From a virus, in IMG/VR virus record IMGVR_UViG_3300027833_000112, positions 1-38,258 of that record: a stretch of DNA of 38,258 nucleotides; one strand, written 5' to 3'. The notes below the pieces were generated by a model. The model worked only from the letters and a program-made list of their open reading frames with translations, was not told the DNA's origin and searched no databases. Each line of letters opens with the position of its first letter. Positions within the stretch are counted from its first letter, which is position 1. The position numbers and the translations under genes are program-made. Shown here piece after piece: positions 3,740-26,659 of this stretch.

Positions 3740-6700
3740 ATGGCTAGATCAGCCCCAAAGTTTAAGAGATTTATTGAATCGATAACTATTACCAACGCAG
3801 GTAGTAACTATTCATCGATTCCATCAGATACTGAGATTTTTATCTCTGCGCCTGCAGGATCTCCCGAGTCTGATCAAATACAAGCAGTCGCCACTGTAGA
3901 TATTCAAAATGGTAGTATCTCATCTATCACTATGACTGAGGTCGGTGATGGATACGGGAATGGTGCATATAATACTCATCAAGTTTATATACGTTCTGGT
4001 CTTGGCATTGGCACTTCTTCTCTAACAAACACTACAGCTGCTGATACCAGAAGACAAGCTGGAACGTATTCTTCAATTGCAGTCACTTCCATGAAGGCAG
4101 GAACTGGTGCAATAGCAACTGTTGTTGTTGACTCTAATGGTGCTGTAACCTCTGTTGATGTGACAACTTCTGGTTCTTCCTATATGGAAGGCGAAACTGT
4201 CACAATTACTGATAACTCTATCGGTGGCGTGGATAATGCCCCAGATATGACATTCACGGTTGCCCAAAATGTTGGTGGCGGTAATGGTGCTATCCTGACG
4301 CCAGTTCTTCAGACGATTGCTCGCGCTCCTGGATATTATCACGACAGCATGCGCTACATCACCGACAGCCAGATTCCCGATTTTATCAGCGATGAATATC
4401 CAAATTTCGCCAGATTCATTAAAGATTACTATGCGTTTGAAGATCTCGGTCATGAAGATTATACTCGATTGAACCTCGCAAACGGTGAGTCACAATATAG
4501 TCCGAATCACCTCTTACAAGAGATGATCGACAAGATAAATCTTGATCACAACGATCCCGATTTCTTAGAACCAATGCTACGACAATACGCGATCGATTTT
4601 CCGCAGACTGCCTTGGTAGACAAAAGACTATTAATTAAAAACATCTCACAATTTTTTGAAGCAAAGGGTTCAAGGAGAGGTGTTGAAGAATTCTTTAAGT
4701 TGATGTATAACGAGGATGTTGAAGTATTTCTTCCATCTGAGTTTATCCTTCGACCTTCCGATGGTATCTATAACAAAGAGTTGACCATCAAGGCATACGC
4801 TAATACAGAAACATCCCCAGTTCCAGATCCTCTCAGCCTTAGAGGTAAGCGTGTTGATATTCATTATTATGAATCCACAGCATCCATTACCGCAAGAAAG
4901 GTGATCAACAGCTCTGTTACACGTGTTAAACAGATTGCATATAGCGCGCCAGCTGCATTTGAAATGACTCTAGATCTTGCTGGAGATACAATAATTCCAG
5001 GACAGGGTGTTGAAGGTGAATTGACTGCTGTTATTGGCGGTAAGATCGCGACTGTTGGAACGATCGGTGCAGCCGATGTGAGCAGAACAGCAGGAACTTA
5101 TGCGGTCACAACATTTACCACGAGCGGAAATGGTACTGGTGCAGCATTCAGTATTGTTGTAAATGGATCTGGTGCAGCTGCAGTGTCAGTCACAACAGTT
5201 GGTAATAACTATGCACCAGACGAAACCATTACAGTCCAAGATGCACAACTTGGGGGTGGTGGCGGTGCTGCTCTGACCTTCAAGGTCGCAACTATTACAG
5301 AGGGTAAGATCTTCTCAGTAACGATTTCTGATGGCGGTGCTGGTTATTCAGCCAACCCTTCTGTTATTGTGCAACCTAATGGTGCTGACACAATCTCTAC
5401 AACCGCAGTTATTGATACTAGATTGACGAGCGGCTCGATTTCTAATACAGTGTTTGTCAATAATGTGCAAGGTGTTGGTTACAACAATGTCCCTACCCTA
5501 ATTCTGAATACTGATCTTGTTCGTTCTTGGATCGGTCTTGAAGGTGTTACAGACGTTATTGACAATAAAACTGCATTCCTGACAAGAGTTCTAAATTCTG
5601 TTGCGCTAAAAACTAATTCAGCTGCAGCCAATGGCGGGTTTGTTGTTGGTGAAACATTTAAGGTTTCTGAGACTGGTGACATCCTCGGTGTGTATGCCAT
5701 TGACTATTTTGCTGGTGACTATACCATCACTGGTATTGATAATAATGCGCTGGTTAGAGTTAAGACTTTGGATACGAGTAATTACCCGACTGTTGTCGAA
5801 GTAATCTCAACAGGTACTGGTTTCCAAAGAGCATCTTTCGATTTTATTCTTCGTTCATCAACGAATGAAACATCAACAATTACTTGTGCAACTGGTTTCT
5901 CACACACATATCCAGGAAACTTCAAGAACTCTCGTGGATTCCTTTCTGACGCGAACAAGATTCAAGATAATGCAGTTTATCAGAACTTCTCGTATCAGAT
6001 TAAAACTTCTCGACCCAAGACAGAATGGGGTGAGTTGCTAGACCGAATTGCACACCCTGCTGGTATGATTGCATGGACTGACCTGCAAATCAACCAAACG
6101 GTCGATATGGGCACAGGCTTCGATGCTCTACCAGATGTGATTGTATTCCGTCTGTTTGCTGAGGTTGAGACACCACTCGTTCAGGATGCCCCAGCCTTAT
6201 TCTTCCACAAACCAGCAATCACTGATAGTGTTGACTGGTCTGATCAGAGAACTGGCGCGGCAGATGATACGATCTTGTTGTTCCCGAATCTTGGTAAGGT
6301 TGAATCCCCATCAGCTACTGATGCTGTTGACAAGTTTGATGTCACTCTGGCGAAAACTGAGTCTGTTGATTGGTCTGAGGCTGTTGCTAAAGAAAGTCAC
6401 TTATCAGCTGTTGCCGATTCAATTGATTGGTCAGAGCTAGTTATTACGTTGAAGGTTATTCTTCGCGAACCAACTGATGAAGTTGACTGGACAGAAACTG
6501 TTGTCACAGTTGTAGAACTAAATAAGACAGAATCTGTTGATATGTCACAAATTGTTTCTCTGTCTCCTGGACTCGGTAAAACTGACTCTGTTGATTGGAC
6601 TCAGTCTATTGCACGTGAATCTGGTTCAGTAAGAACGGAAGACCCAACTGTTGATGAGTCAAATGTCTTACTATTCACTGGTGCATATACTGATGCTGCA

Positions 6701-6793
6701 GGCTGGGGTGAGGCTGGACAAATTATCGCACAGAATTATGCAGGGGATTACTTTGCTGAAGATTATGTCGGTGAAGTTAGAACTATTTCCTAA
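3740..6793 (+). CDS. gp7-like baseplate wedge/structural protein with repeat modules
   Basis: The 1017-residue length is near T4 gp7 (1032), and the gene starts two bases after the gp6 stop, where gp7-type genes are expected. Residues about 210-350 carry a pattern I associate with wedge proteins of marine T4-like phages: IPDFISDEYPNFARFIKDYY, then LIKNISQFFEAKGSRRGVEEFF and a YNEDVEVFLPSEFILRPSDG segment. Beta-rich modules of the GxGY type occur near residues 14-60 and 522-589. The C-terminal end (about 826-980) has six VDWS-like repeats. Sequence similarity to T4 gp7 itself is not evident to me, so the gp7 assignment rests on size, order and the central pattern. Confidence 0.6.
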   Translation: MARSAPKFKRFIESITITNAGSNYSSIPSDTEIFISAPAGSPESDQIQAVATVDIQNGSISSITMTEVGDGYGNGAYNTHQVYIRSGLGIGTSSLTNTTAADTRRQAGTYSSIAVTSMKAGTGAIATVVVDSNGAVTSVDVTTSGSSYMEGETVTITDNSIGGVDNAPDMTFTVAQNVGGGNGAILTPVLQTIARAPGYYHDSMRYITDSQIPDFISDEYPNFARFIKDYYAFEDLGHEDYTRLNLANGESQYSPNHLLQEMIDKINLDHNDPDFLEPMLRQYAIDFPQTALVDKRLLIKNISQFFEAKGSRRGVEEFFKLMYNEDVEVFLPSEFILRPSDGIYNKELTIKAYANTETSPVPDPLSLRGKRVDIHYYESTASITARKVINSSVTRVKQIAYSAPAAFEMTLDLAGDTIIPGQGVEGELTAVIGGKIATVGTIGAADVSRTAGTYAVTTFTTSGNGTGAAFSIVVNGSGAAAVSVTTVGNNYAPDETITVQDAQLGGGGGAALTFKVATITEGKIFSVTISDGGAGYSANPSVIVQPNGADTISTTAVIDTRLTSGSISNTVFVNNVQGVGYNNVPTLILNTDLVRSWIGLEGVTDVIDNKTAFLTRVLNSVALKTNSAAANGGFVVGETFKVSETGDILGVYAIDYFAGDYTITGIDNNALVRVKTLDTSNYPTVVEVISTGTGFQRASFDFILRSSTNETSTITCATGFSHTYPGNFKNSRGFLSDANKIQDNAVYQNFSYQIKTSRPKTEWGELLDRIAHPAGMIAWTDLQINQTVDMGTGFDALPDVIVFRLFAEVETPLVQDAPALFFHKPAITDSVDWSDQRTGAADDTILLFPNLGKVESPSATDAVDKFDVTLAKTESVDWSEAVAKESHLSAVADSIDWSELVITLKVILREPTDEVDWTETVVTVVELNKTESVDMSQIVSLSPGLGKTDSVDWTQSIARESGSVRTEDPTVDESNVLLFTGAYTDAAGWGEAGQIIAQNYAGDYFAEDYVGEVRTIS

Positions 6794-7339: not shown

Positions 7340-8944
7340 ATGGCACTGTTATTAAGGAAAGCTGCAAGAATAGAAAACGCTCGTTCTTTTTATAGAGATA
7401 TCTTTAATGAGAACGACTTCTTCTATATGTTTGCTTCGAGAGCACGGGCGTGGGTAGATGAAAGCACACCCGAAACTCCTCGTGATTCTCAATATTATCA
7501 GGCTCAATACCGTCGAGATATGTTGTTCGTTAAACGCATTCAGGCTTCAGACGCAGTTCTACTTGCTCCGAGGTATAATTGGACTACTGGAACAGTTTAC
7601 GACCAATACGATGATGAGTATGCAACAGGTCACCCTGCTTATAGTGGGGCGACTAATCTGTCAGAAGCACAATTCTATGTGTTGACAGATGAGTTTAATG
7701 TATACAAGTGTATCGAGAATAATAATGACGGGCAAAGTACTGTTAAACCGACATCTACGTCTACAGATATGTTCAAACTTGATGACGGTTATACTTGGAA
7801 GTTTATGTTCCAAGTTGGTGCAGCTGACAGAACAAAGTTTTTGAACACGAACTTTATTCCTGTTCGTAAAGTTTCTGGTGCGGGCAATCCTGCATTTGAT
7901 GTGAACGGAGAATTAGATAGCATTGCTGTTACTGCTGGTGGATCTGGTTATACCTCTGCCCCAACAGTTGTTATTGAGGGAGACGGTACTGGCGCGGTAG
8001 CAACAGCGACTCTTACTGGTAATGCTGTTACCTCGATCACTATTACCAGCGAGGGCAGAGGATACTCCTTTGCATTCGTAAAGCTGACTGGTGGTGGCGG
8101 CACAGGTGCTACAGCTACTGCGACGCTCGGATCTACTGAAACGCCATCACTACAATCATCTGTAGAGGCTGCAGCAGTCAAGGGAACTCTTGACCGTATT
8201 GTTGTCACCAATGGTGGAGTTGACTATGTTGAGGGCGATGTTACCATTACAGTAAAAGGCGATGGTGGTTCTGCGACTGCATCTGCTACTGTGAACGCAG
8301 CTGGAACGATTACTAGCGTCTCAGTCACAAATCCTGGGGCTGATTATACTTTCGTTGAACTTGTGATCGGGCAGACTGTTGGCTCTGGAACAGGCGCGTC
8401 ATTGAGACCAATTGTTTCGCCAAACTCTGGCCACGGTGGTAATCCACCCAGAGAATTGTTCGCTAAAAATGTTGGTGTTACAACTTCATTTACAAGTGAT
8501 GATAACGATATTATAGTTGACAACGAATTCCGTCAGGTTGGTATCATTAAGAATATGCATAACTTTGCAGAAACAGCTTCATTCACTGATTCTATTGGTA
8601 CACCCTGCCACGTTGTCACAATTAGTTCTAGTAATGTGAGTAAATTTAACCTTGATGACACACTCACTACTGATGACGGTGGGCAATTTGATGTAATTCA
8701 AAGTATTGATACGACTGGTAATGGAACCAAGGATACTGTCTACCTCCTAGAGAAGTTTCCTGGAATCTCAGCCTCGTCAACATTTACAAACGTCACCACA
8801 GGCGACACAGGAATGACTATAAATAGTTTAGTGAACCCAGAAATCAGCAATCACTCTGGCGAAATCCTGTATATTGACAATCGTAGACCTATCACTCGCG
8901 ATGAAAATCAGGTAGAAACGCTTAAAGTGATATTTAACTTTTAA
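7340..8944 (+). CDS. 8: gp8-like baseplate wedge protein with inserted beta-repeat modules
   Basis: The 534-residue protein is longer than T4 gp8 (334). Residues 1-190 carry the pattern of marine gp8-like proteins: ARSFYRDIFNENDFFYMFASR, an NWTTGTVYDQYDD segment, FYVLTDEFNVYKCIENNNDG and DDGYTWKFMFQV. The C-terminal part (SNHSGEILYIDNRRPITRDENQ, near the end) also fits the family, whose members form wedge dimers. Two extra modules lie between: residues about 197-263 (SGYTSAPTVVI) and about 280-360. They account for most of the added length. The ATG follows AGGAG. A late-promoter core lies inside its 3' end. Confidence 0.75.
   Translation: MALLLRKAARIENARSFYRDIFNENDFFYMFASRARAWVDESTPETPRDSQYYQAQYRRDMLFVKRIQASDAVLLAPRYNWTTGTVYDQYDDEYATGHPAYSGATNLSEAQFYVLTDEFNVYKCIENNNDGQSTVKPTSTSTDMFKLDDGYTWKFMFQVGAADRTKFLNTNFIPVRKVSGAGNPAFDVNGELDSIAVTAGGSGYTSAPTVVIEGDGTGAVATATLTGNAVTSITITSEGRGYSFAFVKLTGGGGTGATATATLGSTETPSLQSSVEAAAVKGTLDRIVVTNGGVDYVEGDVTITVKGDGGSATASATVNAAGTITSVSVTNPGADYTFVELVIGQTVGSGTGASLRPIVSPNSGHGGNPPRELFAKNVGVTTSFTSDDNDIIVDNEFRQVGIIKNMHNFAETASFTDSIGTPCHVVTISSSNVSKFNLDDTLTTDDGGQFDVIQSIDTTGNGTKDTVYLLEKFPGISASSTFTNVTTGDTGMTINSLVNPEISNHSGEILYIDNRRPITRDENQVETLKVIFNF
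7933..7962 (+). repeat. 30-base stretch identical to part of the tail sheath gene
   Basis: Bases 7933-7962 in the gp8-like gene are identical to 32301-32330 in the sheath gene; both encode the core of the AGGSGYTSAP module. Similar but not identical DNA occurs near 31879 and 14611. This supports exchange of the module between genes by recombination. Confidence 0.9.
8818..8825 (+). promoter_or_regulatory. T4-type late promoter core inside the gp8-like gene
   Basis: Exact TATAAATA within the coding sequence, about 129 bases before the ATG of the 1995-residue gene at 8954. The predicted start is near 8831. An internal promoter for the large downstream gene is plausible but the match could be chance. 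Confidence 0.4.
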
Positions 8945-15159: not shown

Positions 15160-16200
15160 ATGTCAACACTTACAACCCGTTCAGGTAAAGGCTCACCCCT
15201 CACGAATACTGAGGTGGATTCAAACTTTACAAATTTAAACACCGACAAATATCAGAGCGGTGATGACGTTGTTGTTGATGATATCACAGTATCTGGTCGA
15301 TTCATTGTTGGTGTTGATGCTTCGGTTACTGCCGCTGGCACAGTACAAGGCGATGCAACAGCGTTGACCAAAACGTATAATATCATCAACACAGCAAGTG
15401 CCAACCAAGGCGTGAAACTTCTTGATGCTTCTGCAGGAACACGTGTAACAATCTTTAATTCTACAACAGCAACTATCAAGATTTATCCATACAGCGGTGA
15501 GTCTATTAATGACCTTTCTGCCAACGCTGCACTATCTCTTGGTCCAGAAAAGGGTCGTGACTTTGTTGCTGTATCCGCAACTCAATGGCAGTCTACGGAC
15601 GAAGGCGACGCGACTGTTGCTACAACTATTAATGCTTCTGGTCTTGCCTCTCTTGATGGCGGTATTGACGTTGATGGGGCATTTACGGTAGCAAATACAT
15701 CAGGTAATATTGACACCTCGGGAACATTGACTGTTGATGGTCTTTCTTCCCTTGATGGTGGCATTGATGTAAATGGCGCAAACTTCACTGTGAGTACTGC
15801 AGGTGCTATTGTTGGTACTGCACTGAGTATTTCGGGAACTACAACTCTCTCAGGAGATCTGAAATATGGTATCACTGCTTCAATCACTGCAGCTGGTTCT
15901 TCTCAGGGTGATGCTACTGCGCTGACAGAAACAATCAATGTCGTGACTACTGCTTCTGCAGCGCAGGGTGTTAAGTTAAAATCTGCTGCGACTGGTCTTA
16001 GATGTGAAATCTACAACACCACAACCAACGATATCAAGGTTTATCCAAATACTTCGGATAAGGTTGATTCTGGTTCTTCTAATGCTGCAAAAGATCTCCC
16101 AGCAAAAACCTCTATGGTTCTGGTATGTAAGGATGCAGAAAACTGGGAAGTGCTAAGACCAATTGCGCTGTATAATTCTTCTGGTACTCTGTTAAATTAA
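15160..16200 (+). CDS. Fibre-like virion protein with duplicated domain
   Basis: 346 residues. The N-terminus (MSTLTTRSGKGSPLTNTEVD, then SNFTNLN) is a common opening in fibre and virion proteins of marine phages. Two copies of a roughly 95-residue beta-rich domain are visible: about residues 47-145 and 238-335, sharing the SxTAAGxxQGDATALT, TASAxQGVKL and IKxYPxxxxxxxxxSxNAA patterns. Between them sit two copies of a LDGGIDVxGAxFTV unit, typical of trimeric shaft segments. The protein ends hydrophilic (YNSSGTLLN). A role in tail fibre or tail-surface decoration is inferred. The start follows TAGGTAAG and the next gene begins 12 bases downstream. Confidence 0.7.
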   Translation: MSTLTTRSGKGSPLTNTEVDSNFTNLNTDKYQSGDDVVVDDITVSGRFIVGVDASVTAAGTVQGDATALTKTYNIINTASANQGVKLLDASAGTRVTIFNSTTATIKIYPYSGESINDLSANAALSLGPEKGRDFVAVSATQWQSTDEGDATVATTINASGLASLDGGIDVDGAFTVANTSGNIDTSGTLTVDGLSSLDGGIDVNGANFTVSTAGAIVGTALSISGTTTLSGDLKYGITASITAAGSSQGDATALTETINVVTTASAAQGVKLKSAATGLRCEIYNTTTNDIKVYPNTSDKVDSGSSNAAKDLPAKTSMVLVCKDAENWEVLRPIALYNSSGTLLN

Positions 16201-16212
16201 GGATATTATAAA

Positions 16213-17268
16213 ATGGCTGGTCCAGTAAAAGTAAAAGTTTCGGGAAGCGTAGAACAGGGTCTTCAGGTTTTAGATTCAGCTGAGATTATCAACTACTCAG
16301 GTCAATTAATGACTGAGAAGTTTGCAGCCACTAATACTGGAACAGCTTCTGTGAATGTTACAACAGGGAGCGTACCTGCAAATAATACATCAATTGGAAC
16401 ATTTACCGACAAAAAGCGCAATGATACAGTTGGAACACACCCAACAGGTGGTGCTCAGACAACTGTAAATACATATAACTTCTATGAAGGCACAGCTACA
16501 AACAGCTCTTCGTTCACAACGCCAGTAAGAGTAAATGCTGACGGTGATGTTTTAGAAATGACGGCTGCTGAAATAAATACAGAACTTTGTGATGTAGTGA
16601 TCGGAGCATATGTTCAACAGAATGCCCATACTGCTGGTCAATATTATCTTTCTGCTTCTGCTCCTTCAGGTGGAACTTGGGCAAGCAGAGGAACAATCTC
16701 TGACACCCAAGTAGATGGAACAACCGTCACTAAAACACTTTGGCAAAAAACTGCTGCAACAACCAATACATCTAGAGTTTCAGGGACTGGTGTTGTCAAG
16801 AAACTTGATGATAATTCTCTACAAGAGATGACAGATGTTGAGATTGAAAGTTTATTTGCCAACTTAGTGAACCGAATTAAAGACAACAATATCGGAAAAT
16901 TTGTTGTGGCGACTTCTGCTCCAGGATCTGGGACATGGCAGCAGATGGGCGAGACCTTGACTGATCAGGTAAAAAATACAGCAACCTATGCTTATGCTGG
17001 TGCGTATACAGGTTCATACACTGGTTCATATGCAGGCTCTTATTCAGGAACTTATATTGGAGCGTATGCTGGAACGTATCGTCCCTCATATAGTGGCTAT
17101 TTAGGTCCATCATACACTGGTGCTTATGTTGGTTCGTATACAGGTTCATACACTGGTTCATATGCAGGCTCTTATTCAGGAACTTATAATGGGTACTATA
17201 ATGGTCTTACCATCATCAGTTCTTCAAGCAGCCAAGAGTCTAAAAAGTTGTTCATGAGAACTGCCTAA
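16213..17268 (+). CDS. Tail fibre-like protein with Tyr-Gly-Ser repeats
   Basis: 351 residues. The first 250 are Thr/Asn/Ser-rich with two similar segments containing an ELCDVVIGAYV or ESLFANLVNRI stretch followed by a YYLSASAPSGGTW or FVVATSAPGSGTW unit, so the body is partly duplicated. Residues about 258-335 are a low-complexity array of Y-x-G-x-Y units (GSYTGSYAGSYSGTY), rich in Tyr, Gly, Ser and Thr, resembling repetitive fibre tips. The DNA of this array contains a perfect 54-base duplication. The start follows AAGGA. A host-contact or tail-decoration role is inferred from repeats and neighbours, not from a recognised receptor-binding domain. Confidence 0.7.
   Translation: MAGPVKVKVSGSVEQGLQVLDSAEIINYSGQLMTEKFAATNTGTASVNVTTGSVPANNTSIGTFTDKKRNDTVGTHPTGGAQTTVNTYNFYEGTATNSSSFTTPVRVNADGDVLEMTAAEINTELCDVVIGAYVQQNAHTAGQYYLSASAPSGGTWASRGTISDTQVDGTTVTKTLWQKTAATTNTSRVSGTGVVKKLDDNSLQEMTDVEIESLFANLVNRIKDNNIGKFVVATSAPGSGTWQQMGETLTDQVKNTATYAYAGAYTGSYTGSYAGSYSGTYIGAYAGTYRPSYSGYLGPSYTGAYVGSYTGSYTGSYAGSYSGTYNGYYNGLTIISSSSSQESKKLFMRTA
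17003..17188 (+). repeat. Perfect 54-base direct repeat in the Tyr-Gly-Ser fibre array
   Basis: Bases 17003-17056 and 17135-17188 are identical over 54 bases, 132 bases apart start to start (44 codons, in frame). Each copy encodes a YTGSYTGSYAGSYSGTY segment. The identity at all codon positions implies recent duplication or recombination, giving a route to change the number of repeat units in frame. Confidence 0.95.
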
Positions 17269-17298: not shown

Positions 17299-17754
17299 AT
17301 GGAAGTTATCGCATCCTCATTAGACAAAGAACGCCCACCAGTTTGGAAAGACCCTATCTGGAAAGATAAGGAAAACCGTGCAATCGTTGCAAGGCGTTTG
17401 ACTGGAACAGGCGAATATGCAGTTGTACATATTGATGCATCTGACGGTGTAAACAAAGACTTCGATGAAATTCTAGAAATCTTTGGTGAAGAGGCATTAG
17501 ATGAAGCTACTGCCAAACACAAAGAAGAATCAATTCGTAACGAGAAGATTCATCGAGAACGTCAAGAAGCTGATCAGGCGCGGCACAAACAAGAAGTTCT
17601 TTTTAATATGAAGTTAGAAGCATTTGAGGTCGAAGAAATCAAAAACTCGTCAAACAGAGATCTGAAAAAGCGTCTGAGAAAAGCAAAGTCGCCCATCGAG
17701 ATCCAAGCATTTGCTACCCTGATTATACAGGAAGCATTGGCAAATGAAGAGTAA
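17299..17754 (+). CDS. Charged phage protein of unknown function
   Basis: Not recognised. 151 residues. An N-terminal globular part (about 1-75) is followed by a long Glu/Lys/Arg-rich helix (ATAKHKEESIRNEKIHRERQ, about 74-100), likely a coiled coil, and a C-terminal segment SNRDLKKRLRKAKSPIEIQA. The start follows GGAG. It overlaps the glycosyltransferase gene by 11 bases, so the two are probably translationally coupled. Placed directly after fibre genes, it might be a fibre-assembly helper, but nothing in the sequence demonstrates this. Confidence 0.65.
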   Translation: MEVIASSLDKERPPVWKDPIWKDKENRAIVARRLTGTGEYAVVHIDASDGVNKDFDEILEIFGEEALDEATAKHKEESIRNEKIHRERQEADQARHKQEVLFNMKLEAFEVEEIKNSSNRDLKKRLRKAKSPIEIQAFATLIIQEALANEE

Positions 17755-18454
17755 TGGTTTTGTCTATGTCGCCACAGTAAGAAAAGCATTTTATGAAGCG
17801 GCATTGCACTCTGCTCAATCTCTCTTAGATTTTCACCCCGAAGCAAAAATAACTTTATTCACCCATGAACCGTGGGTGTGTGACGAGGCGAGGGAAATTT
17901 TTGATGAGATTATCACCGATGAAGTTCCCAATCACATAAGAGCGAAACTCTGGGCATTGTCTAAGTCTCCATATGACACGACTCTGTATATAGATTGCGA
18001 CACCTTAATCCAAAGCGAAGAAATATCAGAAGTTTTTGATTTACTCGGTGATAATGACATTCTGTTTACACGCAACCGATCCTACAACGCCAAGATAACA
18101 AAGCTGTCTGAGACAGAGGAAATGATTTGGCATTGTGGATTATTTCTCTACAATACAGAAACAACTAAAGATTTGATGGATTGTTGGTATAAATGGTATC
18201 TTGCACAACAAGACCCTAGTTGGGATCCTTCTCCATACCCAGAAGAAGTAAGACCTTGGGACACATTTACTATGTGGAATCTGTTGGCTAATGGTGATTT
18301 TGATATTAAAGTAGGAGAGTTTCCTTCTCCTGATGCAAAGTGGAACTTTGTAACAGGTTACAGAAAAGAAGAACTCATGGGCGAGGAAGCAGTCTTAATG
18401 CATTACACCATCTCAAAAGATAGGATGATCAGTAGTGAAGTTTATAGACCTTAA
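17744..18454 (+). CDS. DXD glycosyltransferase (nucleotide-sugar type, GT-A like)
   Basis: 236 residues. Features match small GT-A glycosyltransferases of the GT8-like group: an N-terminal strand (GFVYVATVRKAFYEAALHSA), an AKLWALSKSPYDTTLYIDCD segment with the metal-binding D84-C-D86, and a later NCG-like patch (MIWHCGLFLYNTE). Such enzymes transfer a sugar from a UDP- or similar nucleotide sugar using Mn or Mg. It is distinct from the four glycosyltransferases on the opposite strand, lacking their KWGxKYxxxxVN opening. It overlaps both neighbours (11 and 20 bases). Acceptor unknown: fibres, baseplate or host surface glycan are all possible. Confidence 0.8.
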   Translation: MKSNGFVYVATVRKAFYEAALHSAQSLLDFHPEAKITLFTHEPWVCDEAREIFDEIITDEVPNHIRAKLWALSKSPYDTTLYIDCDTLIQSEEISEVFDLLGDNDILFTRNRSYNAKITKLSETEEMIWHCGLFLYNTETTKDLMDCWYKWYLAQQDPSWDPSPYPEEVRPWDTFTMWNLLANGDFDIKVGEFPSPDAKWNFVTGYRKEELMGEEAVLMHYTISKDRMISSEVYRP

Positions 18455-19046
18455 TAGTGAAATACTAGAGATACTCGAGGAACACAGAAAGTGGTTCTTT
18501 GATCAGGATCTCTCGGAACTTTATGTCGACGACCACGGCAATTCTAATACAGAACATTCTCAGTCATATGAGTATCTGAAAGAAATGCTAAACAAACCCA
18601 TGGGCAAAGAAAAGGATGAACACGCTGGTCCACCAGAGGTTATTAGGAACGTGCACTTTGGTGTTGGTGCTAGGTCTCCAGAAAAATTCAAAAAAGAATC
18701 TCAAAGGCTTAATGATACGCTTGTAAAGTTTCTCGGTGCTCGCCACAGTGCTGTCCACGTCTATTATCCAGAAGATGGGTTTATGGGTTGGCATAATAAC
18801 TGGGATGTTCCTGGATATAATATTCTCTTAAATTATAACCTTGGAGATGGATACTTTCAGTTTTGGGATGGTGAAATAATCCACACACTTCCTGATTGGG
18901 AAGGGTGGTCTGCCAAGGTTGGGTATTATGGCGGTAAAGAGGATCCAGTTTGGCATTGCGCTGGAGGTGGTCCAAGAATAACTTTAGGGTTTGTAATCCC
19001 TGACAAGGGAATGTGGGAGATGATGGTAGAGGATATCTCTACTTAG
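18435..19046 (+). CDS. 2OG-Fe(II) oxygenase-like protein with altered iron site
   Basis: 203 residues, starting at a GTG that overlaps the glycosyltransferase gene by 20 bases (TAGGATGA lies upstream). The C-terminal half has the jelly-roll pattern of 2-oxoglutarate/Fe(II) oxygenases seen in aquatic phages: AVHVYYPEDGFMGWHNNWD, then YFQFWDGE, VWHCAGGGPRITLGF. Expected ligands are H120, an acidic residue two positions later, H174, and R181 for 2OG. Position 122 is Asn (H-N-N-W-D), so the standard HxD is replaced, although D124 is close. It may be active with altered chemistry, structural, or misassigned. It could hydroxylate a surface component with its partner glycosyltransferase; that is inference. 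Confidence 0.65.
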   Translation: MKFIDLNSEILEILEEHRKWFFDQDLSELYVDDHGNSNTEHSQSYEYLKEMLNKPMGKEKDEHAGPPEVIRNVHFGVGARSPEKFKKESQRLNDTLVKFLGARHSAVHVYYPEDGFMGWHNNWDVPGYNILLNYNLGDGYFQFWDGEIIHTLPDWEGWSAKVGYYGGKEDPVWHCAGGGPRITLGFVIPDKGMWEMMVEDIST

Positions 19047-19707
19047 AACCGATTACCATGAATCTATCATATTTCTTCTGTCCATCCCAAGAGTAATATG
19101 TTTGTTCTCGATGACCCGAATAATATATCTCATCTAAATCAATCTGTTCTTTCAAGTCTTCAATAGAGTCTACGCAGTTGATACCATACATCTCTTCAAT
19201 AACATTACTATTTTGACAAGCAAACAATGCCATTGGGTTCTTCGTTTGAAGTTCTTTGAGTGGATACATCTGTTCTGTATTAATGGCGATAACAACGTCC
19301 GCGTCAATCTTATTGAGTTCGTCAAACGCAAACGGGATGTCTAGATTGTGGTGGCGAATCTTCACAAACTTCTCTTGAGAGTAATGTTTATGCATTATCT
19401 TAGATAAGTCTAATGCCTCTTTGTCTAGGTCGACTAGGTGCAACTCTCCGATATCGAGGTTCTCGCAGAGGAGGGGGACGAGAGGCATCCCCAACCACGA
19501 ATTTAGTACCAATACCTTAATCTTCTCTTGTCTAGCGCAGTTGTCGACATTCTTCATCAACTCTTCAACGAGCCACGTAGCAGCTTCAACGTGATTGGCT
19601 TCATGACACTGGCGCAGATCGCTGAGTTTGTGTGGTGCTTTTTGTTCGATGAAGTATAATGCCTCACCCCAAAATTTGTAGTTGTTTAGAAAATTTGAAT
19701 TAAGCAT
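19039..19707 (-). CDS. Class I Rossmann methyltransferase-like protein
   Basis: 222 residues, last gene of the - strand block. A Rossmann-like core is visible: KVLVLNSWLGMPLVPLL (about 64-80) in place of the usual glycine-rich SAM loop, GELHLVDLDKEALDLS (about 87-102) with the acidic residue expected to bind ribose, and DADVVIAINTEQMYPL (135-150) for the following strand. The classical GxGxG is not present (only LG), so SAM binding is not assured. It overlaps the desaturase gene by eight bases. Its stop overlaps the stop region of the + strand oxygenase-like gene by eight bases. Methylation of a sugar, lipid or small metabolite is possible. Confidence 0.6.
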   Translation of the reverse strand: MLNSNFLNNYKFWGEALYFIEQKAPHKLSDLRQCHEANHVEAATWLVEELMKNVDNCARQEKIKVLVLNSWLGMPLVPLLCENLDIGELHLVDLDKEALDLSKIMHKHYSQEKFVKIRHHNLDIPFAFDELNKIDADVVIAINTEQMYPLKELQTKNPMALFACQNSNVIEEMYGINCVDSIEDLKEQIDLDEIYYSGHREQTYYSWDGQKKYDRFMVIGSK

Positions 19708-20419
19708 CTTTTATAATATCCACTATGGGTTTTAGTATAAACCCCTTGTCATAATTTTTAGGATAATCGTGGTGATGTTTATGATAACCTTCACCAAGAG
19801 TAAGTATATTTTGCCAACTGCTGTCTTTAGGTTCACCATTAACATGGTTATTTACAGTGATTATCTGCGCTAAAAATGCATGAGCTGTGGGTATAACCCA
19901 TAAATAAAACAGGTAATTAATACCACCAAGCAAATAAACTAATAATGCATAAGTAAATATGATCAGATATTTGTTTTTAAATAGGAACATATGCCATTTT
20001 TTTCTACTTAAACGAGAAGATACTGTTGAAGGTGCAGCAGCATAAGATCTATGAAATATAAAAAACCAATTTTTCCATCCCAAGTATTTAGAACTATGCG
20101 TGTCTAATTCAGTATCTGAATACTTATGATGATGCCAATGAGCAGCAGCCCATTCGAACGGACTTAACCATGTCGACAATACAGCTAGTATAGATAAAAT
20201 TTTTTCTTTTGTGTAAGAAATACGAAACGATCTGTGAGTAAAATATCTATGTGCGCTTACTGCTACACCTATGCAAGTAAACATAAAACACGCTAATAGA
20301 GCTGATAATACGCCTGCTATCGTATGATCTGCCAAAAAAATAAACAATATTGCTGGCAGTATAAAAAACTGACCTACAGTCATCATAGCTTGAGGTGTAT
20401 ATTTTTTAAATTTTAACAT
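19700..20419 (-). CDS. Membrane fatty-acid desaturase (acyl-CoA/delta-9 type)
   Basis: 239 residues with ATG at 20419; a longer reading to 20533 lacks matching family sequence and would overlap the preceding gene more deeply. All three histidine boxes that hold the di-iron centre are present: H57-RYFT-H62, H94-WHHH98 and H213-KHHH217, with N191-H192 before the last. Hydrophobic segments at about 17-30, 35-55, 74-90 and 150-175 fit the membrane-embedded fold. Such enzymes insert a double bond into acyl chains using O2 and a reductant. It overlaps the upstream glycosyltransferase gene by 14 bases. Its DNA is notably AT-rich (about 34% GC by hand count over 19741-20400), unlike its neighbours, suggesting separate acquisition. 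Confidence 0.9.
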   Translation of the reverse strand: MLKFKKYTPQAMMTVGQFFILPAILFIFLADHTIAGVLSALLACFMFTCIGVAVSAHRYFTHRSFRISYTKEKILSILAVLSTWLSPFEWAAAHWHHHKYSDTELDTHSSKYLGWKNWFFIFHRSYAAAPSTVSSRLSRKKWHMFLFKNKYLIIFTYALLVYLLGGINYLFYLWVIPTAHAFLAQIITVNNHVNGEPKDSSWQNILTLGEGYHKHHHDYPKNYDKGFILKPIVDIIKDA

Positions 20420-21080
20420 CTTCACTCTTACCCATTGAATCAAATAAACAAATATATGGCATTTCTCTATAGACGTGCCGCTCGGTGTCTTGTGGATATA
20501 CATAACCCTGATTGAAACTGTAGACCCAACCAAATGGAAACAGCTTCATAGGAATTATGTTTTTATCACAAAGGAAATTATCAATTCCTCTATAGTGCCA
20601 CATAATTTGTTCCTTGTATTTATCAAAGAACTCCCACAGCTTTTTACTGTCGAATGAATCGTTCCACCGCAGAACACTCGAGTTTATGTCGCTGAATTTA
20701 TGAGGGACGTGTTTAGTTTCCTCACGCATCGTTTCAATATCGTGCCACCAAGTCTTCACAATACCCAAACAATCCTCTGGCTCAAAATTTTCAAATACAG
20801 TTATGTCCTGTTGAATAAGAATATCGAGGTCAAAGAAAAGTTTCTCTCCTTCCTGTTCAACCAGAGGTGAAAACAGATACATCTTGTTCCACCACTTCTG
20901 TAAATCATTTCCTTCTGGTATGAGTATTGGCTCAATGAAGTCTTTGAGACCAGTCGGGTCGTCTGTGATGCAATATACTTTGCGGTCTGCCTCTGGGAAA
21001 TCCGCTGCAATATCGTATGCAATCTTGTTTACATATTCAGAGGAGTATTTGTCTCCCCATTTCACTGTGTAGATATTCAT
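20406..21080 (-). CDS. DXD glycosyltransferase, paralogue of the - strand set
   Basis: 224 residues from the ATG at 21080, which overlaps the cytidylyltransferase stop as ATGA; this start aligns with its paralogues, so the longer reading to 21104 was not used. It opens with MNIYTVKWGDKYSSEYVN, then CITDDPTGL, and has the metal-binding FFDLDILIQ (D84, D86). Later conserved parts include INSSVLRW and a PFGWVYSFNQGYVYP segment. It belongs to the same family as the products at 21499, 22290 and 23650. The donor and acceptor cannot be read. ATGA coupling to the cytidylyltransferase suggests coordinated production. Confidence 0.8.
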   Translation of the reverse strand: MNIYTVKWGDKYSSEYVNKIAYDIAADFPEADRKVYCITDDPTGLKDFIEPILIPEGNDLQKWWNKMYLFSPLVEQEGEKLFFDLDILIQQDITVFENFEPEDCLGIVKTWWHDIETMREETKHVPHKFSDINSSVLRWNDSFDSKKLWEFFDKYKEQIMWHYRGIDNFLCDKNIIPMKLFPFGWVYSFNQGYVYPQDTERHVYREMPYICLFDSMGKSEDVKI

Positions 21081-21502
21081 TTGACGAAATCCGATTCTGC
21101 CCATAGAATATTTTTGCGTAAATGTTTGGTGCTGAATCGATGTTCTCGTTTATTGTAGTATATTTCGATCCCTTTCCTATCGCAAATCCAGTCTCCTGTG
21201 AATGAAGATCTCTCATATTCTTCGCCAATTATTCTTACATTGATCGGATATAACTCCAAGATATCTTCTAACTCGTTCTCCGTCGCATAAGGTATAATTT
21301 CATCGACATACTTCACTGCCTTCAGTTGCGTGTATCGCTCAACCATATTCTGGACAGGTTTGCCTTTCTCTGATCTTTGGGTGCTCGGATCTATGTGTAA
21401 TGCACATATCAAATAATCGCATTGAGTTTTTGCTTCCTCTAACATTTGAACATGACCAGCATGTAGTAAGTCGAATGCGCTTGCAGTGAGTCCTATCTTC
21501 AT
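21077..21502 (-). CDS. Cytidylyltransferase, glycerol-3-phosphate type (TagD-like)
   Basis: 141 residues from the ATG at 21502 (ATGA overlap with the upstream glycosyltransferase); TTG at 21508 is a weaker alternative. The HxGH nucleotidyltransferase signature is at 14-17 in AFDLLHAGHVQMLEEA, followed by ERYTQLKAVKYVDEI (R56) and a terminal RFSTKHLRK (about 122-130) standing where TagD has its RTxGISTT loop. Length matches glycerol-3-phosphate cytidylyltransferase (about 130). The reaction is CTP plus a phosphorylated alcohol giving a CDP-linked compound and pyrophosphate. Substrate assignment (glycerol-phosphate versus another polyol or sugar phosphate) is uncertain. It sits between two glycosyltransferases, so it could supply an activated donor. 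Confidence 0.82.
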   Translation of the reverse strand: MKIGLTASAFDLLHAGHVQMLEEAKTQCDYLICALHIDPSTQRSEKGKPVQNMVERYTQLKAVKYVDEIIPYATENELEDILELYPINVRIIGEEYERSSFTGDWICDRKGIEIYYNKREHRFSTKHLRKNILWAESDFVK

Positions 21503-22299
21503 TTCCAATGCTCCAGTAATCTTGGGTCTGCCAATTCGTCTTGTTTTGTTTTACCTCTAGATCCATCTTCAAATGGTAAAAGGTCTACATTAAATACACA
21601 GAGAATACAATTCTCTCTATAGATTCCTACGTTTAAATCATCTTCATCCCAAGAGCGTCCACGGTTGTATGAGTATGCCATCCAACTTGGGAAATAATCC
21701 CACAACTCTTTCCATCTCCAGCTGTGGTAGTTATCAGTGCCGTCTGTGAATGTAAACCAAATCTTTTCCTGATGTTCTAATACATCATTCCATATAGGTT
21801 CACACTGGTCGTCACTCCAAACCTGACAACTTCCGTTTGTGAATGCACCGTGGGAAAGTTTGAAGCGACGAGTATCCATGGGTCTTGGATCTTGCCACCA
21901 AGAACGCATCTTGGTCGGTTGCTCCATATTGTAAGTGATGATTGGTGTTAGATCGCTTTGAATGATAACGTCTAAGTCTAGAAAGACGAAACGCCCGTGT
22001 GGGTTATCGTCTGCGAAATTATGGGTATTAAAAACGAAAGTCTTTGCACGATCCCAACAGCGAGCCATTCCATACTTGTAATCGTCCAAACCGAACCAAT
22101 ACTTAGGATGAATATCAGGAATATCTGGAAAGGGGATGACCTTAATATCAGACTGAAGACCCACACTGTCATCAGTGTAACAATAGAAGTGAAAGTCAAA
22201 CTGATCAGGGCAGTTTCTACGAGCCATGTTACATAGGCGATTGACAAAGTGTGCACCATACTTTGTGCCCCATTTAGCACAGACGAAATTTACACGCAT
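21499..22299 (-). CDS. DXD glycosyltransferase, paralogue of the - strand set
   Basis: 266 residues from the ATG at 22299, overlapping the preceding gene by ten bases; TTG at 22308 is a weaker start. It opens MRVNFVCAKWGTKYGAHFVN and shows a CYTDDSVGL strand, PDIHPKYWFGLDDY, and FVFLDLDVIIQ with D108 and D110 as the metal site. SHGAFTNGSCQVWSDDQ and a TDGTDNYHSWRWKELW segment resemble the counterpart in the fused protein next door, to which it seems closest (both share xIHPKYWFG and WDRxKxFxFN-like parts). Tandem duplication is likely. Donor and acceptor unknown. Confidence 0.82.
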   Translation of the reverse strand: MRVNFVCAKWGTKYGAHFVNRLCNMARRNCPDQFDFHFYCYTDDSVGLQSDIKVIPFPDIPDIHPKYWFGLDDYKYGMARCWDRAKTFVFNTHNFADDNPHGRFVFLDLDVIIQSDLTPIITYNMEQPTKMRSWWQDPRPMDTRRFKLSHGAFTNGSCQVWSDDQCEPIWNDVLEHQEKIWFTFTDGTDNYHSWRWKELWDYFPSWMAYSYNRGRSWDEDDLNVGIYRENCILCVFNVDLLPFEDGSRGKTKQDELADPRLLEHWK

Positions 22300-23690
22300 C
22301 TTCCACAAGTCTCTTTACAAATTTTCAAATGGTCTTTCTTCAGACTATCATTATAACATTCAAAGTCTGCATTATATACAATATCCTTCAATGGGAAGGA
22401 CTTAGCGTTATTGTATTTAGGATTGTATGGGTAGTCTATTGGATGCAATGGAAAGAGTCTACTCTCTAAAACATCTCTAGCCATATACGAACAGGGAAAC
22501 ACGTGTCCCTTTGCATTGATGTAAACCATATTGTCGTTTCTGGCTTCACAATCAACAACCCACTTTTCTTCCTTTACAACATTCCTGTATTCTTCTTTTT
22601 GTTTAAACTTCTTAATGTTCTCTCTTGTTACAAGTTCTTTTTCCTGCTCAACTATTGGTCTGCCCAGTTTATTGATTATGTGCAAACCAAAATCTAGCGG
22701 TGGTTGTATCACCTGTGTGCCTTGTTGCTCGAACCATTCTACAATTTTGAAATAATCCTTACAACGATTAGGTCGGGTGAGTGTCGTGAGTAATGTCACG
22801 TATTCAGGTATGTCAACAAAGATACGTTTCACATCTTCTAGTGTGAGTTCGTCGTCTTCAATGAAAAGGTCGTTAAATTTATTTTCAGTATCATTGTATT
22901 TGTTTGAAAGTTCCAACACAACACGAGTTGGAAACTCTTTATACATGTCGTATTTACCATACCAATGATTAAGGAGAGTTGGATCTTCCAACTCCTCGAT
23001 AGAAATTGACACATCTTTTTCTATCATATTCTGGTTGAATATAGCGAGTTTGGCGAGGAAGTCTGTTTCTTGATAATTGTAACTGTAATACCATTCATGG
23101 GGTAAGAAGTTCCAGAAATTGGTTCCAGCTGGTCGTCTCCATTGATGGTAGTTATCAGATCCCTTGTAAAAAACTTTGAACACATCTGGGTTTTTCACAA
23201 CATCTTCGTATATCTTTTTCGGTTGGTCAGACCACCAAAGCATACAACTAGAGTTGAAATATGTTCCGCGAATATCTCTAAATCTTCTCTCCTTCATCTG
23301 CCCTTCAGGTTGCCAATGAGAATATAGGATATGGGGTTGGAATGCAAGTTCGTAAAACTCATCAATTGAGTCTTGTATGATAATGTCTAAATCGAAATAA
23401 CAGAATGGTCCAACTTCACCGAGCCACTCTTGAGCGTTGAACAGGAGGAATTTAGAACGATCCCAGCAATAGTTCTCCTCGCCAAACCAATACTTTGGGT
23501 GTAGCGGTTCAACATCGGGGATGGGGTGAATATCTACTTCTTCCCGAATCCCATCGGGTTCATCTGTGAAACATACCATTCTAAATTGATTGACATAGTT
23601 CGCGTCAATCATACCATAAAGGTTATTCACATATGATGCAGAGTATTTGTCACCCCACTTTATCGTCAGAAAAGTGAGAATAGTAATCAA
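22290..23690 (-). CDS. Glycosyltransferase fused to a degenerate radical-SAM/SPASM-like domain
   Basis: 466 residues. Residues 1-240 are a glycosyltransferase like its neighbours: IKWGDKYSASYVNN, PLHPKYWFGEENYCWDRSKF, and YFDLDIIIQ with D100 and D102. From about 250 the pattern changes to that of radical-SAM proteins (FPTRVVLELSNKYN, then LTLEDVKRIFVDIPEY and FKIVEWFEQQG), but the CxxxCxxC that should follow LSNK is absent (YNDTENKF). The end retains SPASM-type cysteines: C381-x13-G395-x4-C400 and a C458-x3-C462-x2-C465 tail. No ATG lies near the correct start; TTG at 23690 follows AAGGA too closely, and overlap with the upstream gene is 41 bases, so the exact start is unsure. Confidence 0.75.
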   Translation of the reverse strand: MITILTFLTIKWGDKYSASYVNNLYGMIDANYVNQFRMVCFTDEPDGIREEVDIHPIPDVEPLHPKYWFGEENYCWDRSKFLLFNAQEWLGEVGPFCYFDLDIIIQDSIDEFYELAFQPHILYSHWQPEGQMKERRFRDIRGTYFNSSCMLWWSDQPKKIYEDVVKNPDVFKVFYKGSDNYHQWRRPAGTNFWNFLPHEWYYSYNYQETDFLAKLAIFNQNMIEKDVSISIEELEDPTLLNHWYGKYDMYKEFPTRVVLELSNKYNDTENKFNDLFIEDDELTLEDVKRIFVDIPEYVTLLTTLTRPNRCKDYFKIVEWFEQQGTQVIQPPLDFGLHIINKLGRPIVEQEKELVTRENIKKFKQKEEYRNVVKEEKWVVDCEARNDNMVYINAKGHVFPCSYMARDVLESRLFPLHPIDYPYNPKYNNAKSFPLKDIVYNADFECYNDSLKKDHLKICKETCGRCV

Positions 23691-24342
23691 TCCTTAAATT
23701 GAAGTCATGCCTATCTTGACCGTTTAACAGGCAGATACTTGCTCCCTTATGATGCTTCCTGCCTCTGGGACTCGTATCTGTTTCATAATCAATACCATAT
23801 GCATAAGAGTATATACTGCCCTTGGGAAAATATGCAAAGATATATCCGTGTACATGGTATAAGTATTTATCGTCACAATCTCGGTATCTCAAGAGCCATC
23901 TATCTGGGTCTGCGGAGAAGTGCGTGAACATCGACCGCCCGTTTCCTTTGCTCCAAGCGATAACACTAGAGTTGTAATCGCCACCACCGATATGTGCTTC
24001 GAAACCTTCTGGTTTCCAGTACGTCTTACATATGGTGGGTCTTTCTAATCCTGCGTCAAAAAATTCGTCAAGATTTGGGTTTTGAATGACGACATCTAGG
24101 TCTAAATATAAACATTGATCTACATCACGCCCCTCAAACATCATCACCTTATTGAATGTTCCCAGTTCTGGGTCTATTCCTGTGACTGTCTTGACTTTTG
24201 GATCTAACCCACTAGGTGCAGAGTCACAATACAGAACATAATTATAACCCTGACCGCTAGTTGAGTCAACAATATTATTAACGTCTCGATAAGAATATTT
24301 GCTGCCGTACAGCAACATAAAAATAGTTTTCATATAAGACAT
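23650..24342 (-). CDS. DXD glycosyltransferase, first gene of the - strand block
   Basis: 230 residues from ATG 24342, or 227 from the in-frame ATG at 24333, which I favour because its product (MKTIFMLLYGSKYSYRDVNN) aligns with the paralogues and the promoter's -10 box overlaps the first ATG. It has VLYCDSAPSGLDP, FNKVMMFEG and CLYLDLDVVIQ (metal site D78 and D80 in the shorter numbering), then DYNSSVIAWSKG. It is more divergent and shorter than the next two family members. The acceptor is unknown. No convincing Shine-Dalgarno sequence precedes either ATG, so initiation may be leaderless or weak. Confidence 0.8.
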   Translation of the reverse strand: MSYMKTIFMLLYGSKYSYRDVNNIVDSTSGQGYNYVLYCDSAPSGLDPKVKTVTGIDPELGTFNKVMMFEGRDVDQCLYLDLDVVIQNPNLDEFFDAGLERPTICKTYWKPEGFEAHIGGGDYNSSVIAWSKGNGRSMFTHFSADPDRWLLRYRDCDDKYLYHVHGYIFAYFPKGSIYSYAYGIDYETDTSPRGRKHHKGASICLLNGQDRHDFNLRIDYYSHFSDDKVG

Positions 24343-24748: not shown

Positions 24749-26659
24749 ATGGATATGAAAGACCTGTTTCAGATGTTGGCTGAAGAAAAAGCCAAGAACT
24801 CTGCCGATCAGAAGAAAACAAAGAAAAAATCGAAAGATCTTCAAGGCGATTTCTTGGAGGCGTTTTCGTCTGAGCTGAAACAGTTGAAGGAAGAGGAAGA
24901 AAAACAAAAGCGCGAAGTCGCTGCCATGGAAGCGTGGTTGACATCACCGACAAACAAAGGCGGTGTTCAGGTTGAGGAGATTGTTGGCGACACAGAAGAT
25001 AAACTCCCTGAAATACAAGAAGTTGTCGAACAGGTCTTTGAAGAAGACAAAGAAATCCTAAAAGAATTAGTAGACACACCCCTTCAAGAACAGGCACTCG
25101 ACTTCTTGAAGACCAAGCGCGTTGAGTTATCTGAAGAACAGGTTAAAATAAAAGGTCTTGAGAAACAGATCGACGATGTGAAGAAATCAATCATGAGTAT
25201 TCGGTTGGGTCTTCAAGGTTCTTCGGGTGGTGGCGCAGTAAAGATAAAAGACATGGACGATTTAGATCGTTCAACTGCTCTTGTAAACAATAAATTTTTA
25301 AAATATAATTCAGCATCAGGTAAATGGGTCGGTGCAGATGCATCTGGTGGCGGGAGTGTAGATTTCTCGGCTGTCGGAGAAAGTATAGTTCCTTCAACAA
25401 CTGAAACATATGACCTCGGAACTGCATCAAAGAGATGGAACGATTTGTTCTTGGCAGGTGAAACTATTGATTTGGGTGGCACAAAGATATCCAAGGATAG
25501 TAGTGGAGATGTTTCATTTAAAGATAGTTCTGATAATCTCAAAAAGATCATAGTGGACGAGTTGCACATTGGTAATGGCGGTAATGTGCTGAAGTTGAAA
25601 TCGTCGGGTGGTAAGTTAAAGGCGGTTGACAATTCAAACTCCAAAGTCAGCCATGACGTTGCCTTCAACGAAATCACATCGACTCCCACCACATTAAGTG
25701 GATATGGAATCACCGACGCACAAGCAGCGTTGGTTTCAGCAACAAATATAAAAACAATCAACGGGACTTCTCTTCTAGGTAGTGGGAACATAACCGTATC
25801 TGGTGGCGGTGGTGGAGATGTGGCGTTTGCAGATGTTACCAGTAAACCAACTACTATCGCTGGATATGGTATCACTGATGCATTCGATGGCGCATATAGT
25901 TCGTTATCAGGTGCGCCAACTATACCAACTGTCTCAAATGATTTCACTAATGCTGACCACACTAAACTTAATGGGATTGAAGCATCTGCTGATGTAACTG
26001 ACACAGCTAATGTGGTCTCGGCATTGACAGCAGGGACTAATGTTACCATTGCAGCTGACGGAACTATTAGTTCGGCTGATACAAATACAACATATTCAGT
26101 GGGTGATGGTGGATTAACCCAAAATAACTTTACAGATGCGTTGAAGACTAAACTAGATGGTATTGAAGCATCGGCTGATGTGACGGATACTACAAATGTT
26201 GTTGCTGCTCTAACAGCAGGGACTAATGTAACAATCGCGTCAGACGGCACAATCAGTTCGACTGACACAAATACTACTTATAGTGTTGGCGACGGTGGTC
26301 TCACACAAAATAACTTTACAGATGCGTTGAAGACTAAACTAGATGGTATTGAAGCATCGGCTGATGTAACAGACACAGCTAATGTAACATCTGCTGGTGC
26401 ATTGATGGATACAGAGGTTACAAACCTCGCGGAAGTGAAAGCATTTGATTCTTCAGACTACGCAACAGCTGCACAGGGAACTAAAGCAGATACAGCGAAT
26501 GGCTGGGGTAATCACGCATCAGCTGGATACCTCACGTCAGCAACCACGTCGACAACGCAGTCAACAGGCGATAATACAACTAAAATTGCAACAACTGCCT
26601 TTGTCCAACAAGAAATTACTGCATTGAAGGCTCTGTTGTATGCTTATGACCAATCATAA
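24749..26659 (+). CDS. Long tail fibre-like protein with coiled-coil base and 62-residue repeats
   Basis: 636 residues. Residues about 1-155 are Lys/Glu-rich and helical (coiled coil), ending in a glycine hinge (GLQGSSGGG). A shaft of TYDLGTASKRWNDLFL and DELHIGNGG segments follows, as in trimeric phage fibres. Next are PTTLSGYGITDA and SKPTTIAGYGITDA units, then three copies of a unit around TKLxGIEASADVTDTxNV, with TAGTNVTIAxDGTISSxDTN (period 62 residues). The end (STGDNTTKIATTAFVQQEI) is a common fibre motif just before the C-terminus. It is likely an adsorption or side fibre; the receptor tip is not obvious. The start has no clear Shine-Dalgarno sequence. Confidence 0.8.
   Translation: MDMKDLFQMLAEEKAKNSADQKKTKKKSKDLQGDFLEAFSSELKQLKEEEEKQKREVAAMEAWLTSPTNKGGVQVEEIVGDTEDKLPEIQEVVEQVFEEDKEILKELVDTPLQEQALDFLKTKRVELSEEQVKIKGLEKQIDDVKKSIMSIRLGLQGSSGGGAVKIKDMDDLDRSTALVNNKFLKYNSASGKWVGADASGGGSVDFSAVGESIVPSTTETYDLGTASKRWNDLFLAGETIDLGGTKISKDSSGDVSFKDSSDNLKKIIVDELHIGNGGNVLKLKSSGGKLKAVDNSNSKVSHDVAFNEITSTPTTLSGYGITDAQAALVSATNIKTINGTSLLGSGNITVSGGGGGDVAFADVTSKPTTIAGYGITDAFDGAYSSLSGAPTIPTVSNDFTNADHTKLNGIEASADVTDTANVVSALTAGTNVTIAADGTISSADTNTTYSVGDGGLTQNNFTDALKTKLDGIEASADVTDTTNVVAALTAGTNVTIASDGTISSTDTNTTYSVGDGGLTQNNFTDALKTKLDGIEASADVTDTANVTSAGALMDTEVTNLAEVKAFDSSDYATAAQGTKADTANGWGNHASAGYLTSATTSTTQSTGDNTTKIATTAFVQQEITALKALLYAYDQS
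26120..26367 (+). repeat. Perfect 62-base direct repeat within the long fibre gene
   Basis: Bases 26120-26181 and 26306-26367 are identical over 62 bases, offset 186 bases (62 codons). They cover the NNFTDALKTKLDGIEASADV part of the repeating unit. Flanking parts of the unit differ at synonymous sites, so this section was probably homogenised recently. Confidence 0.95.

Follow-up and report, generated by a model that had tools for sequence, protein, structure and literature searches.

A Tyr-Gly-rich array in a phage fibre-like protein reads as two mirror-paired arms of a putative out-and-back beta needle

The DNA analysed here, referred to as the window, makes up the whole of a virus record of 38,258 bases. 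PHROGs matches cover baseplate wedge subunits, a PAAR protein, a tail-fibre protein, a tail-sheath stabiliser, tail sheath, terminase, portal and head protease; this gene set identifies a T4-like myovirus. Within the baseplate/fibre cluster, flanked by wedge and tail genes, lies the gene for a fibre-like protein that carries a Tyr-Gly-Ser array near its C-terminal end (Table 1). Pfam gave this protein sub-threshold matches only, including Gly-zipper matches that reflect composition, and PDB sequence searches (phmmer and profile) returned nothing meaningful and no gp37. Elsewhere in the window, the tail-fibre gene at 24749-26659 contains a direct repeat of 186 bases (25961-26385, 2.3 copies, 80% matches). 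The middle stretches of the tail sheath protein (31561-33804, 747 residues) match tail-fibre and other virion families, and matches of this kind are also present in 28413-29435, 3740-6793 and 7340-8944.

Relatives of the array protein were collected from IMG/VR in overlapping searches that gave 16, 38, the best 80 of 109, 3, the best 80 of 222, and 10 loci. Phage C48C1 (Kyanoviridae) was the sole match, a weak one, in 50,697 records of named phages. A pattern scan of genome contigs yielded 50 stretches that fit the pattern, with no relative among them, and the literature searched (freely readable papers, excluding preprints) held no description of the array.

Table 1 Features of the array locus. 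Synteny counts are tblastn matches anywhere in the fetched flank of unique relatives or relatives with enough flank; positions were displayed for some of the rows.
Feature	Position	Strand	Basis
Upstream protein kept with the array gene	15160-16200	+	61/65 relatives with enough flank
Fibre-like array-bearing protein, 351 aa	16213-17268	+	ORF; relatives found; no PHROGs, NCBIfam or PDB match
N-terminal base, residues 1-258	16213-16986	+	AlphaFold2 pLDDT mostly 80-96
Arm 1, Y261-Y293, eight four-residue steps	16993-17091	+	Step count; model strand 249-293
Repeat copy 1, in arm 1	17003-17056	+	Exact 54-base identity with copy 2
Central tip, residues 290-300, RPSYSGYLGPS	17080-17112	+	Highest variability; model strand break 294-300
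Arm 2, Y301-Y329, seven four-residue steps	17113-17199	+	Step count; model strand 301-349
Repeat copy 2, in arm 2; in mirror register, almost opposite copy 1	17135-17188	+	Exact identity
C-terminal cap, residues 333-351, conserved	17209-17265	+	Alignments; entropy 0.65 bits per site
151-aa protein	17299-17754	+	70/70 unique relatives with enough flank
GT8-like glycosyltransferase	17744-18454	+	PF01501; 69/69 unique relatives with enough flank
Conserved oxygenase-like protein (our reading)	18435-19046	+	26/26 relatives with enough flank

The original prediction had placed a Tyr-Gly-Ser array of about 75 residues at this position, and both the array and its coordinates, to within a few bases, proved correct: the 75 residues from residue 257 onwards comprise Y20, G17, S12, A9 and T9. 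The array proper spans residues 259-331 and is laid out as two arms of Y-x-G-x units flanking an odd centre. Upstream of it, the base is internally repetitive, with 'GTW...DTQ' and 'EMT.AEI' motifs. In a first alignment, array length was constant in nearly all relatives and the middle of the array bore a different motif, such as YRPSYSGYLGPSY in the window. This central tip is the most variable stretch of the protein (entropy 1.53 bits per site, compared with 0.97 in the base), and the cap is conserved, with an aromatic residue 18 residues past the last array Tyr in nearly all relatives. The tip changes independently of the base, because the identities of the two parts to the window are out of step: 86% in the base and 36% in the tip for one relative (L002), 67% and 91% for another (L003).

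To compare the arms, we parsed 74 of 81 unique proteins, the other seven being truncated or lacking anchors. Arm 1 counts eight and arm 2 seven steps of four residues in 14 of the 22 arrays, including that of the window, that have no six-residue steps. Across the wider family, arm 1 takes 16 distinct lengths, and the lengths of the two arms, ranging from 22 to 178 residues, correlate with r = 0.995 in 68 of the 74 arrays. This value leaves out six irregular arrays (L013, L014, L101, L113, L131 and L137), which were also left out of the covariation analysis below; with all 74 arrays, r falls to 0.948. Independent contrasts on a FastTree phylogeny of the base domain (66 arrays) gave r = 0.996 with a slope of 0.98, and about 23 length changes were inferred on the tree in arm 1 and 24 in arm 2. 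Between relatives, unit number thus does not vary freely by slippage; both arms change in step.

Many relatives carry units of six residues, such as YTGAKNY or YTGTSAY, which are two residues longer than the ordinary unit. In seven arrays we first noted that, with one arm folded onto the other, every AK unit has a TS unit across from it. Extending this to the 52 arrays with six-residue units, 122 slots coincide at the same step from both ends. All 116 slots that could be typed are complementary (60 K:S and 56 S:K, with no K:K and no S:S), and the remaining six hold rarer units. Long units without a partner at the same step number 19, of which 13 lie near the tip and six belong to L113, where they are staggered; one further long unit lies past the end of the shorter arm. 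Grouped into architectures, long units are mirror-placed in 21 of 22, and stand at the index expected of a direct repeat in 2 of 22. The order of unit types can also be read as a direct repeat in 16 of the 22, but in four architectures (L087/L104, L108, L110/L124 and L126/L127/L130) it is at odds with a direct copy, and the units are complementary all the same, as in all seven slots of L108.

The ordinary four-residue units covary between the arms as well. This analysis used the 40 arrays that remained after filtering at 80% identity, and excluded long units together with their neighbours. The arms covary only where i + j equals the sum of the first and last Tyr, or two less (column-preserving z of 8.7 and 12.5), with z no higher than 2.6 at seven other offsets; the shuffle controls used here and below leave part of the shared-ancestry signal in place. 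At the stronger offset, Tyr stands opposite Gly. The residue after Tyr (x1; 261 rungs, z = 15.6) follows the rule that T lies opposite S or A: T:S and S:T were seen 62 and 56 times against 36 and 34 expected, and like rungs were depleted, with T:T seen 15 times against 55 expected and S:S 11 times against 22. Arrays that, like the window's, lack long units (n = 13) give a weaker and less specific signal, with z of 3.8 and 3.7 at the mirror offsets and 3.6 at +4. Taken alone, the window's array has Gly opposite each of its seven Tyr between 261 and 285, and five of seven x1 rungs read T:(S/A) (permutation P = 0.019). The register that sets first Tyr against last Tyr fits the long units exactly, and ordinary rungs covary most strongly two residues off; because of this two-residue difference, we give the register as near 588-590 instead of as one value. 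A register of 594, derived from the strand ends of the AlphaFold2 model (centre at residue 297), was also considered; covariation does not favour it and places the centre at 294.

The pairing rules were written down before further relatives were fetched. The 60 new loci comprised 23 that could be parsed, 22 duplicates and 15 without anchors. In the new relatives, K:S occurred in 30 slots, with no K:K or S:S. Two more kinds of pair came to light: PA:TA in 19 slots, with PA:PA and TA:TA never seen, and SR:SR, one step off, in 25. Exceptions were a PA:TS slot in L166, a TA:PK slot in L183, in which K stands opposite TA, and one unmatched unit in L170. Five arrays (L160, L161, L177, L182 and L190) had been misread in this count, a wrong or broken stretch having been taken, and L160 and L161 came out correct in a separate reading. 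In the 10 arrays that served as hold-out for the rung rule, the fixed register was the only one to show covariation (z = 4.7; 0 of 1,000 shuffles). T:T was seen 6 times against 11.7 expected, a ratio of 0.51 that narrowly missed the forecast of below 0.5. The SR:SR stagger, seen in L113, L160-L163, L166, L170, L171, L173 and L179, always runs in the same direction, unlike the in-register xK:TS and PA:TA pairs.

The perfect 54-base duplication reported in the original prediction is present at the positions given in Table 1. Its copies lie in frame, 132 bases (44 codons) apart, and form the longest exact repeat of the array. Synonymous-codon shuffles within the array (n = 20) gave a longest exact repeat of 17 bases, which argues for recent copying rather than the simple recurrence of residues. 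The copies fall on either side of the centre, that is, in different arms, and do not constitute a tandem duplication. In mirror register, residues 264-281 lie opposite 307-324, and copy 2 covers 308-325. Under the T:(S/A) rule, the x1 residues of the repeat (T, T, A, S) complement themselves, and a single sequence can therefore fit either arm. In the closest relative, L002 (77% identity), the array is equally long and its longest repeat has 20 bases, which suggests that the copy replaced sequence at constant length. Judged from the sequences, the simplest history would be a recent copy from arm to arm with zero net change in length relative to L002. Separately, a 75-base exact repeat at an offset of 66 bases (one 22-residue super-unit) is found in L108, whose arms are about five times longer than those of the window; it is the longest repeat among the 74 arrays.

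An AlphaFold2 monomer model, computed for the window protein with 14 relatives, has a mean pLDDT of 80.9 and predicts two long strands, 249-293 and 301-349, with a turn between them at the centre. The array itself has a pLDDT of 53-63, and the model therefore supports the topology, not the register. For a relative with xK and TS units (L045, 10-row alignment), mean pLDDT was 37. Foldseek searches of the model against the PDB and BFVD gave no match at E = 0.001.

Taken together, we consider it likely that the array forms the stem of a beta needle that runs out and back and terminates a marine phage fibre or receptor-binding protein. Its tip would be variable, and its arms would be mirror-paired unit by unit, somewhat in the manner of DNA strands. 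The mirror symmetry extends across relatives to length, position and residue type, as read from their sequences. The chain would leave the N-terminal base and run outward as arm 1, turn at the central tip (residues about 290-300), return as arm 2 antiparallel to arm 1, and end in the C-terminal cap packed on the base. Tyr of one arm would face Gly of the other, and Thr would face Ser or Ala; aromatic rescue of glycine is known from beta-sheets. In relatives, the longer units would each meet their proper partner, xK with TS, PA with TA, and SR with SR one step off. Given such pairing rules, the arms could change length or pattern only together. The tip would be the likely host contact. The original reading of the protein as fibre or adhesion material is supported by gene context and architecture; assembly as a trimer, location at the fibre tip, contact with a receptor and modification by the GT8-like enzyme are further features that the protein may have.

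Several other explanations bear on the same observations. The original prediction saw in the duplication an in-frame means of length change, by which slippage or duplication would alter the number of units and, with it, adhesion. Relatives do have arrays of different lengths, and the 54-base repeat far exceeds that of synonymous shuffles; but lengths differ only in step on both arms, close relatives keep their length, and the nearest is equally long without a repeat whose copies, in the window, sit in opposite arms. We regard this account as very improbable. A sticky segment that is disordered, silk-like or phase-separating and has no defined pairing would fit the low-complexity Tyr/Gly/Ser composition and the low pLDDT of the array, yet complementarity of distant residues that is specific in position and type is unexpected in a disordered chain, which leaves this reading highly improbable. 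Slighter still is the chance that the arms are a direct, parallel duplication, solenoid-like, whose symmetry records copying history. That idea draws on the 16 architectures with compatible type order and on the existence of inter-arm copying at the DNA level; against it stand the low number of index matches, the four architectures in which the mirror complement holds where a direct copy fails, and covariation with its maximum at a single mirror sum and the one next to it. The arm-length, architecture, covariation and hold-out results reject or disfavour all three readings.

A needle with real mirror pairing might alternatively serve elsewhere than at a host-contact tip, as an internal strut, a whisker or a fibre scaffold, or the pairing might join neighbouring chains. 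The giant version in Phage C48C1 (3347 aa), far larger than a tip needs, speaks for such a role, but no stretch varies more than the tip, which in L002 and L003 has changed independently of the base; we hold this alternative to be unlikely.

The genes downstream raise the matter of modification. By its position, the 151-aa protein may be an assembly chaperone. The next protein, the GT8-like one, scores 24.6 bits against Pfam PF01501, just above the cut-off of 24.3; D84-x-D86 is invariant in its alignment, and 3 of 15 members match PF01501 at E = 0.01. We read the protein at 18435-19046 as 2OG-Fe(II)-oxygenase-like, a reading of our own. H120, H174 and R181 are invariant in it, and there is no relevant Pfam, PHROG or PDB match. 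The hallmark of 2OG-Fe(II) oxygenases is an HxD...H triad; here, position 122 is Asn, not Asp. Further on, the product of 19039-19707 (minus strand) is methyltransferase-like, with a weak Spermine_synth match, and is kept in 20 of 23 relatives with enough flank. Four neighbouring genes (20406, 21499, 22290 and 23650) on the minus strand in 20406-24342 encode glycosyltransferase-like paralogues in a row, all with a 'WG.KY..VN'-like start and a DxD motif of FDLD-like form; the 22290 gene has a weak C-terminal SPASM match.

Glycosylation of the array, as originally proposed, is possible. The recurrence of the GT8-like gene in all 69 relatives with enough flank makes a stronger case than mere adjacency in one genome. 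Accordingly, the stem might be a modified platform, on which the putative GT8-like and oxygenase-like enzymes decorate Tyr, Ser and Thr, or Lys. The cassette of array, 151-aa, GT8-like and oxygenase-like genes recurs wherever flanks suffice (70/70, 69/69 and 26/26) and also in Phage C48C1, and GT8 includes glycogenin, which glucosylates a Tyr. Against this, the GT8 match lies at the cut-off and the oxygenase reading has no library support. We regard the modified platform as a tentative proposal, less likely than not, and it is compatible with the hairpin.

If the out-and-back needle is correct, the array would represent a class of fibre built on a protein-duplex stem whose pairing alphabet is small: Tyr:Gly, Thr:Ser/Ala, xK:TS, PA:TA, and SR:SR one step off. 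We lean towards this broader view, with less confidence than towards the needle itself. Complementary arms would mean that stems lengthen or change by paired changes only. Stem length could then be reset over an at least eight-fold range while the base, the tip design and the neighbouring enzymes stay, and the array would offer a beta-duplex code that can be read and perhaps also programmed. Prediction from sequence is difficult for fibre stems; in this family of arrays, which is absent from the libraries searched, the sequence appears to tell which residue faces which, so that the pairing of strands, the place of the tip and the length of the stem could be taken directly from metagenomes. It also poses an evolutionary question, namely how two arms change length together.

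Phage C48C1 (OQ984149) is among the closest known systems. It shares a related base (26.9% identity), a similar C-terminal ending and the same downstream 151-aa, GT8-like and oxygenase-like genes, but its protein is a giant of Y-x-G/R-x units, with many Arg-containing units and several globular inserts. Its array and those of L015 and L016 were inspected by eye. In the C48C1 locus (L054, 11983-22026), a stretch of about 70 residues occurs twice in tandem near residues 2005-2155 of the array protein. In structural comparison, the best VIA-align score (Z = 7.0; the gp37 needle is not among the structures in its rows) fell to the MABP beta-prism (3tow), which aligns to the base and returning C-terminal strand (rmsd 3.4, 112 aligned, 12% identity). 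The perforin-2 P2 domain (6sb4) aligns to the same part (Z = 6.3, rmsd 5.0, 120 aligned, 5% identity). With Z below 8, these matches may reflect merely a common arrangement, and we treat them as a lead only.

A model for how the proposed needle would work is the distal needle of T4 gp37 (residues 811-1026, domains D10-D11). According to the accessible text of PMC9603124, its chain runs from knob to tip and back, leaving both termini at the knob, with equal stem arms at 882-931 and 960-1009, a receptor-binding tip at 932-959 and the C-terminal 17 residues in the knob; the accessible text of PMC9659904 describes the needle as six-stranded and antiparallel. PDB sequence searches and Foldseek detected no relation in sequence or fold, and the stem here is built of Y-x-G-x units. 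Its complementary unit code and arms of 22-178 residues are not reported for gp37 in the accessible text of these papers. We claim analogy and not family membership or homology: the order of base, arm 1, tip, arm 2 and cap is that of the gp37 needle, as far as those texts describe it, and the array may work in the same way.
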